A stretch of DNA of 64,000 bases from Miltoncostaea marina (GTDB lineage: Bacteria > Actinomycetota > Thermoleophilia > Miltoncostaeales > Miltoncostaeaceae), in the NCBI RefSeq assembly GCF_018141525.1, contig NZ_CP064655.1:2388501-2452500 (forward strand), read 5' to 3'. Position 1 is the first letter of the stretch; each line of letters begins with the position of its first letter. The position numbers were made by a program, and so were the translations under genes. Shown here in pieces: positions 49,610-52,179 of this stretch. The notes beneath the pieces were generated by a model, which did no database searches, had not been told where the DNA came from, and worked only from the letters and a program-made list of their open reading frames with translations.

Positions 49610-50806
49610 TCATCCCACCGGTGCCGGGCCGCGGTAGCGCGAGCGAGGCCGGATGAGGCGCGCGTCGTCGCGGGTCTCCAGCGCGTGGGCGATCCAGCCC
49701 GCCGAGCGCCCGAGCGCGAAGAGCGCGAAGGCGGCCCCGGACGGCAGGCCGAGCGCCCGGGCGAGGGCCGCGAGGCCGAAGTCGAGGGTCGGCGCCTCGC
49801 CGAGCTGCTCGGCCGCGAGCGCGACGAGCCCCTCCACCGCCGGGTCGGGCGCCGTCGAGCGCCCGCGGGCCAGGCGCAGGAGCTCGGCGGCGCGGGGGTC
49901 GCCGCCGGGGTGGAGCGGGTGCCCGAAGCCCGGCAGGCGGCCGTCGCCCTCGAGGGCGCGGCCGGCGGCCGCTGCCGCGCCGTCGTGCGCGGCGGCGCGG
50001 ACGAGCGCCTCCACCCGGTCGGTGAGGCCGCCGTGGCGCCGCCCGCGCAGCGCGCAGAGGGCCGCGAGGACGACGTGCTCCAGCGCCGCGTCGGCCGACG
50101 CCACGCAGCGCGCGGTGAACGAGCTGACGTTGAGGTCGTGGTCGGCGCACAGCACCAGGGCCGCGTCCAGCTCGCCCGCAGCGTCGGCGACCCCCCAGCC
50201 GGCCGCCAGGCGCTGCGCCAGGCGGCCGCCGCCGCGGGCGCCGGCCGCCCCGAACAGGCCCTCCACGAGCCGCGCCGCCGCCCGCCACACCACGGCGTCG
50301 CCCGCCCCCAGCGTCAGCAGCGCGCCCTCCCCCGCCGCGACCAGGTGCGCGGCGAGCGCGCCGGCCGACGGGGGCCCGGCCGCGGGGGCGTCCCCGGCCG
50401 GCGGGCCCGCGCCGTCGCCCGCGGGGGCGAAGAGCGACGCCGCGACGTCGGGGTCGGCGGCCCAGAGCAGCGCGGCGACGCGCTCGAAGGGCTCCGACCG
50501 GGAGAGCGCCACCACGTCGCGCCCGCGCAGGAAGACGCGGCCGTCCTGGATGAGGGTGAGCTCCGAGTCGAGCACCGGCAGCCCCCAGTGGAGCGATCCG
50601 TGCGCGGCGAGCTCGCGGTCGCGCGCCCGCTCGCGCCGCCCGGCGAACGCGTCGATCGAGGACGCCGGGTAGCGCCGCGCGCGGCTCGGCCCCGGCCCGG
50701 GCGCCGACTCGATCAGCCCGCGGCTGACGTAGGCGTAGAGCGTCGCCTTCGAGACCCCCAGGCGGGCGGCCGCCTCGCCGGCGCTCAGGTACTCGTCCGC
50801 GGTCAT
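49610..50806 (-). CDS. HTH-citrate synthase fusion protein
   Basis: 398-residue protein joining a DNA-binding module to a citrate synthase. Residues 5-60 form a MerR/excisionase-like HTH (LSAGEAAARLGVSKATLYAY, VSRGLIESAPG). The rest (about 75-390) is citrate synthase with all three catalytic positions retained: LVLCADHDLNVSSFTARCVA (His), LPGFGHPLHPGGDPRA (His) and PTLDFGLAALARALGLP (Asp), then FALFALGRSAGWIAHALE. It could sense oxaloacetate/acyl-CoA and regulate directly (inference). ATG at 50806 (a 12-residue longer start is possible) has TATCAT-N6 upstream and no ribosome-binding site. An AT-rich dyad overlaps this promoter and that of the divergent DRE-TIM gene. Confidence 0.85.
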   Translation of the reverse strand: MTADEYLSAGEAAARLGVSKATLYAYVSRGLIESAPGPGPSRARRYPASSIDAFAGRRERARDRELAAHGSLHWGLPVLDSELTLIQDGRVFLRGRDVVALSRSEPFERVAALLWAADPDVAASLFAPAGDGAGPPAGDAPAAGPPSAGALAAHLVAAGEGALLTLGAGDAVVWRAAARLVEGLFGAAGARGGGRLAQRLAAGWGVADAAGELDAALVLCADHDLNVSSFTARCVASADAALEHVVLAALCALRGRRHGGLTDRVEALVRAAAHDGAAAAAGRALEGDGRLPGFGHPLHPGGDPRAAELLRLARGRSTAPDPAVEGLVALAAEQLGEAPTLDFGLAALARALGLPSGAAFALFALGRSAGWIAHALETRDDARLIRPRSRYRGPAPVG

Positions 50807-50809
50807 GGG

Positions 50810-50858
50810 TTGATGATATCGATCAATATTGACGCACGCCACGGGGGGCTCCTACCGT
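50810..50858. promoter_or_regulatory. Shared divergent promoter/operator of HTH-citrate synthase and DRE-TIM gene
   Basis: AT-rich island (50810-50832) with two overlapping dyads: TTGAT-N7-ATCAA (50810-50826) and TCAATATTGA (50823-50832). The second overlaps the rightward -35 TTGACG (50829-50834), followed by 18 nt and -10 TACCGT (50853-50858). The first overlaps the leftward -10 TATCAT (50818-50813). One protein bound here could control both genes. Confidence 0.65.
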
Positions 50859-50865
50859 CCCGGCC

Positions 50866-52179
50866 ATGGACACCTCATACGACATCACCGACCCCGCCGC
50901 CCCCGAGCTGTTCGCCGACGCGTTCCCCCGGGACGGCTTCCCCCGCTACAGCTGGACGGAGCGGCCCGCCGACATGCCGGCCGCCGCCTGGACCACCGAG
51001 ACCACCCACCGCGACGGCCAGCAGGGCGGCCTGCCCCTCTCCGTCGAGGACGGCGTGCGGATCTACGACCTGATGTGCGCCTTCACCGGCGACAGCGGGG
51101 CGATCCGCCAGGCCGAGTTCTTCGTCTACCGCCCCGCGGACCGGCGGATGCTCGAGGCGGCCCTGGAGCGCCACGGCGGCGGGGCGCCGGTCGAGCCGAC
51201 CACCTGGATCCGCGCGAGCCGGCGCGACGCCGAGCTGGTCGGCGGCCTCGGCGTCCGCGAGACCGGGATGCTCGCCTCGGCCAGCGACTACCACACCTTC
51301 CACAAGTTCCGGCCGGGCGGCCGGCGCCAGGCCGCCGCGACGTACCTCGACGCCGTCCGCGCCGTGCTGGACGCGGGCCTGCGCCCGCGGCTGCACCTGG
51401 AGGACGCCACGCGCGCCCCCGAGGAGTTCGTGCTGCCGTTCGCGGCCGCCGTGATGGAGCTGTGCGAGCCGTTCGGCCGCGACCTGCGGCCCAAGTTCCG
51501 GGTCTGCGACACGATGGGCCTGGGGCTGCCGTTCGACGACGTCGCCCCGCCGCGCTCCGTGCCGCGCTGGATCCGGCGCCTGCGCGAGCTGGGCGTGGCC
51601 GGCGAGGACCTCGAGTTCCACCCGCACAACGACACCCACCTGGTGGTGGCGAACTGCCTGCGGGCGATCCGGGCCGGCTGCGCCGTGATCAACGGCACGC
51701 TGCTCGGCACCGGCGAGCGCACCGGCAACGCGCCGCTCGAGGGGGTGCTGCTGCACGCCATCGGCATGGGCCTCGTGCCGGAGCCCGGGCCCGACTTCCG
51801 CGTGCTCAACGAGCTGGCCGGGCTCTACGCCGACCTGGGCCGGCCGGTCCCGCCGGCCTACCCGCTGTACGGTCGCGACGCCCACCGCACGCGGGCGGGC
51901 ATCCACGCGGACGGCCTCAACAAGTTCTGGTGGATGTACGCGCCGTTCGACGTGCCGCGGCTCGTCGGCCGGCCGCTGGAGGTGAGCCTCACCCGCGACT
52001 CGGGGCTCGCCGGACTCGTCTTCCTCATCCGCCAGCACACCGGACGCGAGCTCGCCAAGGACGACCCCGAGCTGCTGCGCGTGCACGGCGCGCTGACGGA
52101 GCAGTTCGACGCCGGCCGTCAGACGGCCGTCGAGTGGGAGGAGGTCGAGGCGCTCCTGGCGTCACCCGTGGCCTCCTAG
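50866..52179 (+). CDS. DRE-TIM metallolyase-family acyl-CoA condensing enzyme (isopropylmalate/homocitrate synthase-like)
   Basis: 437-residue TIM-barrel enzyme that should condense an acyl-CoA with a 2-oxoacid, or run the reverse lyase reaction. The metal/substrate motif TTETTHRDGQQGG opens the barrel; EFHPHNDTHLVVANCL supplies metal-binding histidines and NGTLLGTGERTGNAPLEG is the DRE-TIM signature. The C-terminal LeuA regulatory domain is absent, so it is not a standard feedback-inhibited LeuA. The substrate could be pyruvate, 2-oxoglutarate, oxaloacetate (Re-citrate synthase type) or another oxoacid. It is divergent from an HTH-citrate synthase fusion, whose substrates overlap. ATG at 50866 sits 7 nt after TACCGT. 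Its stop TAG overlaps the convergent epimerase stop (CTAG, 52176-52179). Confidence 0.85.
   Translation: MDTSYDITDPAAPELFADAFPRDGFPRYSWTERPADMPAAAWTTETTHRDGQQGGLPLSVEDGVRIYDLMCAFTGDSGAIRQAEFFVYRPADRRMLEAALERHGGGAPVEPTTWIRASRRDAELVGGLGVRETGMLASASDYHTFHKFRPGGRRQAAATYLDAVRAVLDAGLRPRLHLEDATRAPEEFVLPFAAAVMELCEPFGRDLRPKFRVCDTMGLGLPFDDVAPPRSVPRWIRRLRELGVAGEDLEFHPHNDTHLVVANCLRAIRAGCAVINGTLLGTGERTGNAPLEGVLLHAIGMGLVPEPGPDFRVLNELAGLYADLGRPVPPAYPLYGRDAHRTRAGIHADGLNKFWWMYAPFDVPRLVGRPLEVSLTRDSGLAGLVFLIRQHTGRELAKDDPELLRVHGALTEQFDAGRQTAVEWEEVEALLASPVAS

Follow-up and report, generated by a model that had tools for sequence, protein, structure and literature searches.

PutA, BirA, and NadR are trigger enzymes or enzyme-derived regulators, and in them, as in the Caulobacter citrate synthase CitA and, as we propose, in the protein described here, the fold of a metabolic enzyme also serves to control transcription or a cell programme. 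To our knowledge, no known trigger enzyme is a citrate synthase that is joined to an HTH domain and has a conserved operator of its own. CitA is a case of a moonlighting citrate synthase (PMC7083601), and the citrate-responsive LysR-type regulator CcpC (PMC8514465) controls genes of the citrate branch, as may the fusion protein studied here, although the sensor domain of CcpC is unrelated. Our search of the open-access literature retrieved no description of HTH-citrate synthase regulators; subscription journals lay outside this search, and an earlier description is possible.

The C-terminal part of the fusion shares its fold and active site with Si-citrate and 2-methylcitrate synthases (PF00285; PrpC, 3o8j, and the T. 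maritima protein, 2p2w), from which the fusion differs by its N-terminal HTH, a shortened N-terminal part of the synthase, NCBIfam scores below the cut-offs, and a cognate operator. The product of the divergent neighbour, P0002, belongs to the same family as an enzyme of phosphinothricin and phosalacine producers, which we take to be 2-phosphinomethylmalate synthase, joining acetyl-CoA to the oxaloacetate analogue phosphinopyruvate. The two are 58 to 60% identical and have the same E45/H48 motif, but the antibiotic enzyme is encoded in the phosphinothricin cluster, with neither an HTH-citrate synthase beside it nor the operator. P0002 also has the DRE-TIM fold of the Re-citrate synthases of the Clostridium kluyveri type (Kuenenia KSMBR1_RS10820, Syntrophus), to which it is 38 to 41% identical over the full length and with whose clade it has in common the residues Q52, Y88, D92, E132, R175, H177, R230, T342, K398, and R418. 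Known Re-citrate synthases, oxygen-sensitive as reported (PMC12016533), serve organisms that have no Si-citrate synthase, whereas the P0002 family stands beside a full Si-citrate synthase, carries Glu at the position of a metal-ligand Asp, and lies under an HTH-citrate synthase operator.

Here, we examine this pair computationally and consider it fairly likely, taking the proposal as a whole, that the fusion is a one-component regulator with a citrate synthase fold, probably a repressor, which controls a Re-type citrate synthase.

The divergent pair and its fusion protein

Both genes lie in the window—the whole 64-kb stretch that was analysed, part of a closed, G+C-rich chromosome of 3.37 Mb—and profile matches confirmed the domains and positions that the initial annotation had given for a fusion gene divergent from a DRE-TIM gene (Table 1). 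The chromosome belongs to the Actinomycetota, with a Thermoleophilia MAG as the closest relative that bears a name. The fusion, P0001 (open frame 49610-50842, minus strand), matched HTH_17 (PF12728) with 40 bits against a cut-off of 27 and Citrate_synt (PF00285) with 167 bits; P0002 matched HMGL-like (PF00682) with 79.5 bits. The fusion is likely to start at the ATG rather than at the upstream GTG, because the GTG frame crosses the operator and the residues before M13 lie outside the conserved HTH. This ATG stands 3 bp from the operator island, the distance originally claimed.

Table 1. Features of the gene pair and its spacer, in window coordinates
Feature	Coordinates	Strand	Remarks
HTH-citrate synthase fusion gene	49610..50806	-	398 aa from ATG at 50806-50804; frame open to GTG 50842
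HTH_17 (MerR/excisionase-like) DNA-binding domain	50636..50791	-	Residues 18-69 of P0001; recognition region TLYAYVSRG
Citrate synthase domain, active-site residue set complete	49619..50587	-	Profile match, alignments, model
Operator TTGATGATATCGATCAATATTGAC	50810..50833	.	Dyad TTGAT-N7-ATCAA plus third half-site TTGAC
Possible −10 TATCAT of fusion gene	50813..50818	-	Inside operator; position not conserved
Probable −35 box TTGACG of DRE-TIM gene	50829..50834	+	Inside operator
Probable −10 box TACCGT of DRE-TIM gene	50853..50858	+	Spacer 18 bp; ATG 7 nt downstream
DRE-TIM condensing enzyme gene	50866..52179	+	437 aa; sister group of (most likely) Re-citrate synthases

The retention of all catalytic residues, also part of that annotation, holds for the window fusion: H235, H270, H308, R317, D354, R379, and R398 of P0001 align with seven active-site positions of pig citrate synthase, H238, H274, H320, R329, D375, R401, and R421 in what we take to be the numbering of the pig enzyme. 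Four of these (H238, R329, R401, and R421), which bind oxaloacetate, are kept in the 37 fusions compared except in the one at L095, where the citrate synthase domain is degraded and the operator lost; 31 of the 37 retain all seven residues. Together with the higher mean pairwise identity of the catalytic half of the citrate synthase part (49%, compared to 34% for its N-terminal half), this conservation speaks for a true trigger enzyme, namely, an enzyme that still has citrate or 2-methylcitrate synthase activity, acts as a repressor besides, and stays on DNA for a time set by its own turnover. We regard this as possible but somewhat doubtful, since five fusions—L085 (H320Q, D375E), L087 (H320A), and L106, L135, and L146 (D375E)—keep HTH and operator intact despite their changed catalytic His or Asp, so that full turnover seems dispensable there. 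These five point to sensing, the role that we favour for the citrate synthase fold.

The best-conserved segment of the fusions is the HTH recognition region, with a mean pairwise identity of 61% and a nearly invariant TLYAYVSRG. An AlphaFold2 model of the fusion (pLDDT 88.5), based on an alignment from which plasmid-derived rows were left out, comprises the N-terminal HTH, a weakly predicted linker, and a citrate synthase fold whose nearest structures are 3o8j and 2p2w. No NCBIfam citrate or methylcitrate synthase cut-off is reached by the fusion, the best of these models scoring 116 bits against a cut-off of 550.

Some loci hold natural variants of this architecture. The genes at L085:6748-7971 and L087:6737-7915 encode catalytic-His variants with an intact operator. 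At L127:7723-7995 and L218:4298-4570, an HTH-only protein of 84 to 90 aa with the motif YAYVSRG and no attached citrate synthase domain is encoded directly upstream of the DRE-TIM gene, with which its gene shares one operon. Only the DNA-binding part has been retained at these two loci.

The DRE-TIM enzyme and its likely product

P0002 carries the motifs RDGxQ, HxHND, and GERxGN in its DRE-TIM/HMGL-like domain. Its family forms one clade with the Re-citrate synthases (support 100), as their sister group and not nested inside them, and P0002 matches them with 271 bits and 38% identity, compared to 63 to 122 bits and 27 to 32% for LeuA and NifV types. An identity as LeuA, citramalate synthase, or homocitrate synthase (NifV) was rejected, given scores far under the cut-offs (for the NifV model TIGR02660, 126.6 against 462.9 bits) and a separate branch in the tree.

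The members of the sister clade come from Clostridia, small-genome Actinomycetota, and Planctomycetota, and we identified the clade by a sucC/sucD context like that of Kuenenia, in a tree built without the C. kluyveri sequence itself. PF00285 is absent from all eight genomes of Clostridia and Actinomycetota with sister-clade homologues and present in 30 of 30 others (Fisher p 2e-8); aconitase-family proteins are found in the genomes lacking PF00285, although the same family also covers LeuC. The planctomycete members adjoin sucC and sucD, the context of the Kuenenia Re-citrate synthase gene, whose product and the C. kluyveri enzyme share 55% identity (PMC8027424). Given the missing PF00285 in eight of eight carriers and these Kuenenia-like neighbours, the sister clade most likely consists of C. 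kluyveri-type Re-citrate synthases.

The family of P0002 itself departs from this type at the metal site. All sister sequences have Asp as the metal ligand in the DRE motif, whereas Glu (E45) takes its place in 98% of the family and in the phosphinothricin members, and the family also differs from Re-citrate synthases at H48, P253, W355, and other sites, so that the substrate may differ as well. The window genome retains a full Si-citrate synthase, and PF00285 is likewise present in 30 other carriers, those of the sister clade alone lacking it. Because of the Glu, and because carriers keep a normal citrate synthase, we do not file P0002 as a Re-citrate synthase, although it probably works like one. 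Its most likely product is citrate, a prediction drawn from the relatives on both sides, which use acetyl-CoA with oxaloacetate or an analogue, and from G010, a genome of the window genome's family in which a Si-citrate synthase gene has taken the place of the DRE-TIM gene at this operator.

The dedicated carboxylic-acid pathway that had been suggested for the pair finds no such backing. Clustering of the flanking open reading frames of about 70 loci yielded no third conserved gene near the pair, which is a two-gene module. Citrate itself is suggested by the phylogeny, by the exchange of partners, and by the lack of a Si-citrate synthase in genomes that carry sister-clade members. We consider it unlikely that the enzyme serves a secondary pathway with another product, such as 2-methylcitrate, a substituted malate, or a phosphinate or phosphonate analogue. 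Homologues from phosphinothricin clusters (Streptomyces viridochromogenes DSM 40736 and Kitasatospora phosalacinea; at L136, the cluster is recognised by its PEP mutase and B12-dependent radical SAM neighbours) do nest inside the P0002 family and share with it the Glu at the metal site, yet they have neither the operator nor a close fusion beside them, and no gene family of a further pathway recurs next to the pair. Among the genes tested beside the window pair, none carries a domain of phosphonate or phosphinate clusters. The DRE-TIM gene of the Isosphaeraceae locus L131:8001-10481, with a D-2-hydroxyacid dehydrogenase gene after it, branches as sister to the phosphinothricin-cluster enzymes; the antibiotic enzyme may stem from a source related to this gene.

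Operator and proposed regulator across genomes

The window operator, 24 bp of the form TTGAT-N7-ATCAATATTGAC, lies in an A/T island between the genes. The rarity that the initial annotation ascribed to this island is borne out: 17 of its 26 bases are A or T, a level reached nowhere else in the window. TTGAT-N6/7-RTCAANNTTGAC has a single match in the 3.37-Mb genome, at the pair, against an expectation of 6e-5 from base composition. The same annotation had placed dyads over both promoters: the right half-site TTGAC reads as the −35 of the DRE-TIM promoter; the −10 proposed for the fusion's own gene is plausible, but a fixed −10 sought on the fusion side across loci was not found. The DRE-TIM mRNA is probably leaderless, as only 7 nt separate the −10 from the ATG.

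Using the DRE-TIM protein as query, we scanned about 85,000 species genomes and obtained 70 loci; 72 loci with a readable upstream region were scored, including the window, its relatives, and two Deinococcus plasmids, on both of which the pair is present. An adjacent divergent HTH-citrate synthase gene was found at 45 of the 72. The hosts of the pair are Actinomycetota, Deinococcota, Chloroflexota, and Verrucomicrobiota, along with single MAGs labelled Spirochaetota, Bacteroidota, and Acidobacteriota, which may be misbinned and their taxonomy wrong; L009 and L098, with identical proteins, are probably one genome. Calling the operator as the best match to the consensus ATATTGAT-N6-ATCAATATTGACAA, which was itself read from the spacers of these DRE-TIM loci, against shuffled copies of each spacer, we found it in 43 of the 45 linked pairs (15 to 22 of 22 matches compared to shuffled maxima of 12 to 17), whereas no more than 4 of the loci that have no linked fusion possess it. 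Apart from the operator, little in the spacers is conserved. The co-occurrence in other genomes that the initial annotation proposed to look for is therefore extensive, and fusions unlinked to such dyads, the case named there as contrary, are limited among the pairs to L095 and L110; on computational grounds, its notion of a trigger enzyme acting at a double operator gains good support from this wide co-occurrence and from the overlap of the operator with the DRE-TIM −35. Since the consensus was taken from these very loci, greater weight falls on independent tests. When 30 whole genomes were searched, 20 proved to contain TTGAT-N6/7-RTCAANNTTGAC, nearly always as a single copy and in most cases at the pair; the reversed control pattern had no hit. 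With about one site per genome, the 15-base pattern gives no sign of a global regulon.

A TAnnnT element follows TTGAC at 17 to 18 bp in 33 of 43 loci; each of the remaining spacings between 8 and 29 is represented by zero to two loci. This spacing also bears on the direction of control. MerR-like HTH proteins are often activators, and the half-sites reach upstream of the −35, as might be expected if the fusion activated the DRE-TIM gene instead of repressing it. Promoters activated by MerR, however, typically have spacers of 19 to 20 bp, whereas here the spacer has the optimal length of 17 to 18 bp and the half-site is the −35 itself; we judge activation improbable and retain repression as the preferred reading.

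The operator is not confined to loci with a DRE-TIM partner. The fusion faces a Si-type citrate synthase gene in Agrobacterium fabrum pAt and in G010, a family III CoA transferase gene in Azospirillum, Comamonas, and G019, and a DUF2332 gene in Roseomonas and Pseudoroseomonas, and the operator is present in each case, as it is at an unannotated fusion locus of Niveispirillum; in all these loci, the matches exceed the shuffled maxima. It was not found at two distant fusion paralogues, one beside an MFS transporter and one beside a CMD protein. Conversely, four DRE-TIM loci have the operator without an adjacent fusion (L094, L114, L118, and L139), and, as predicted, all four have a full-length fusion elsewhere in the genome (251 to 492 bits), whereas among 19 DRE-TIM loci that lack the operator, 17 have no such protein and just 2 have any (Fisher p = 0.0017). 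The operator kept with other partners and the unlinked fusions elsewhere indicate that the operator follows the regulator and not the partner. The fusion behaved like a DNA-binding regulator throughout these comparisons. That the spacer is merely A/T-rich by chance or composition, with incidental dyads, is scarcely credible and was rejected, for although promoters of G+C-rich genomes are often A/T-rich, the operator is conserved across phyla, found about once per genome, kept with unrelated partners, and accompanied by unlinked fusions.

The loci L188:4474-7254, L219:1434-4206, and L214:2952-5592 (Azospirillum, Comamonas, and a relative of the window genome) have the fusion opposite a family III CoA transferase, a partner that suggests a CoA-ester ligand. 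On Roseomonas and Pseudoroseomonas plasmids (L222:1873-4203 and L220:1896-4185), the fusion lies opposite DUF2332 across the operator, and this partnership may offer a lead on the function of DUF2332. A second type of HTH-citrate synthase paralogue, in Ktedonobacteria (L217:5550-8337 and L215:4015-5990), lacks the usual operator and faces an MFS transporter gene or a carboxymuconolactone decarboxylase-like gene. At L120:259-879, in a member of the Trueperaceae without a fusion, a gene for a GntR-family regulator, perhaps a replacement, lies directly upstream of the DRE-TIM gene.

Proposed regulation and its implications

From the operator and its overlap with the promoter, we infer that the fusion is a one-component regulator of transcription that most likely acts as a repressor and has the citrate synthase fold as its sensor. 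A dimer of the fusion would bind TTGAT-N6/7-ATCAATATTGAC between the genes, where it would cover the −35 of the DRE-TIM gene and abut its own start codon, keeping RNA polymerase off the DRE-TIM promoter; the simplest reading is that both genes would be repressed. Once the synthase pocket holds oxaloacetate, acetyl-CoA, or citrate, the fit to DNA might change and the protein be released. Citrate synthases close over oxaloacetate, and such a domain closure could be passed on to the HTH pair of the dimer. The target would be a metal-dependent DRE-TIM enzyme that condenses acetyl-CoA with oxaloacetate and so provides the cell with another citrate synthase, non-homologous to the first and of Re type, whenever these substrates outrun the housekeeping Si-citrate synthase. 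On the other hand, given the Si-citrate synthase of the window genome, the DRE-TIM enzyme is not needed there as the sole citrate synthase, and the CoA transferase and DUF2332 partners make it plain that the tie between regulator and citrate synthesis does not hold for all lineages.

A broader view, for and against which we see the case as evenly balanced, is that HTH-citrate synthases form a widespread, undescribed family of regulators with one operator code across phyla, and that, in this branch, a Si-citrate synthase, whether retired or still active, both controls a non-homologous Re-type citrate synthase of aerobic bacteria and senses the substrates of that enzyme. Plasmid records name proteins of the fusion family only by terms such as "citrate synthase family protein," an annotation behind which a regulatory role would stay hidden. 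If this view is true, citrate synthase would be added to the short list of enzymes that are known to have turned into transcription factors, and the natural variants that kept HTH and operator while losing catalytic residues would let the roles of enzyme and sensor be separated. Likewise, Re-type citrate synthases, known from anaerobes, would have relatives in aerobic lineages, and the fusion with its operator would constitute a compact, single-site biosensor module for substrates of the citrate cycle.
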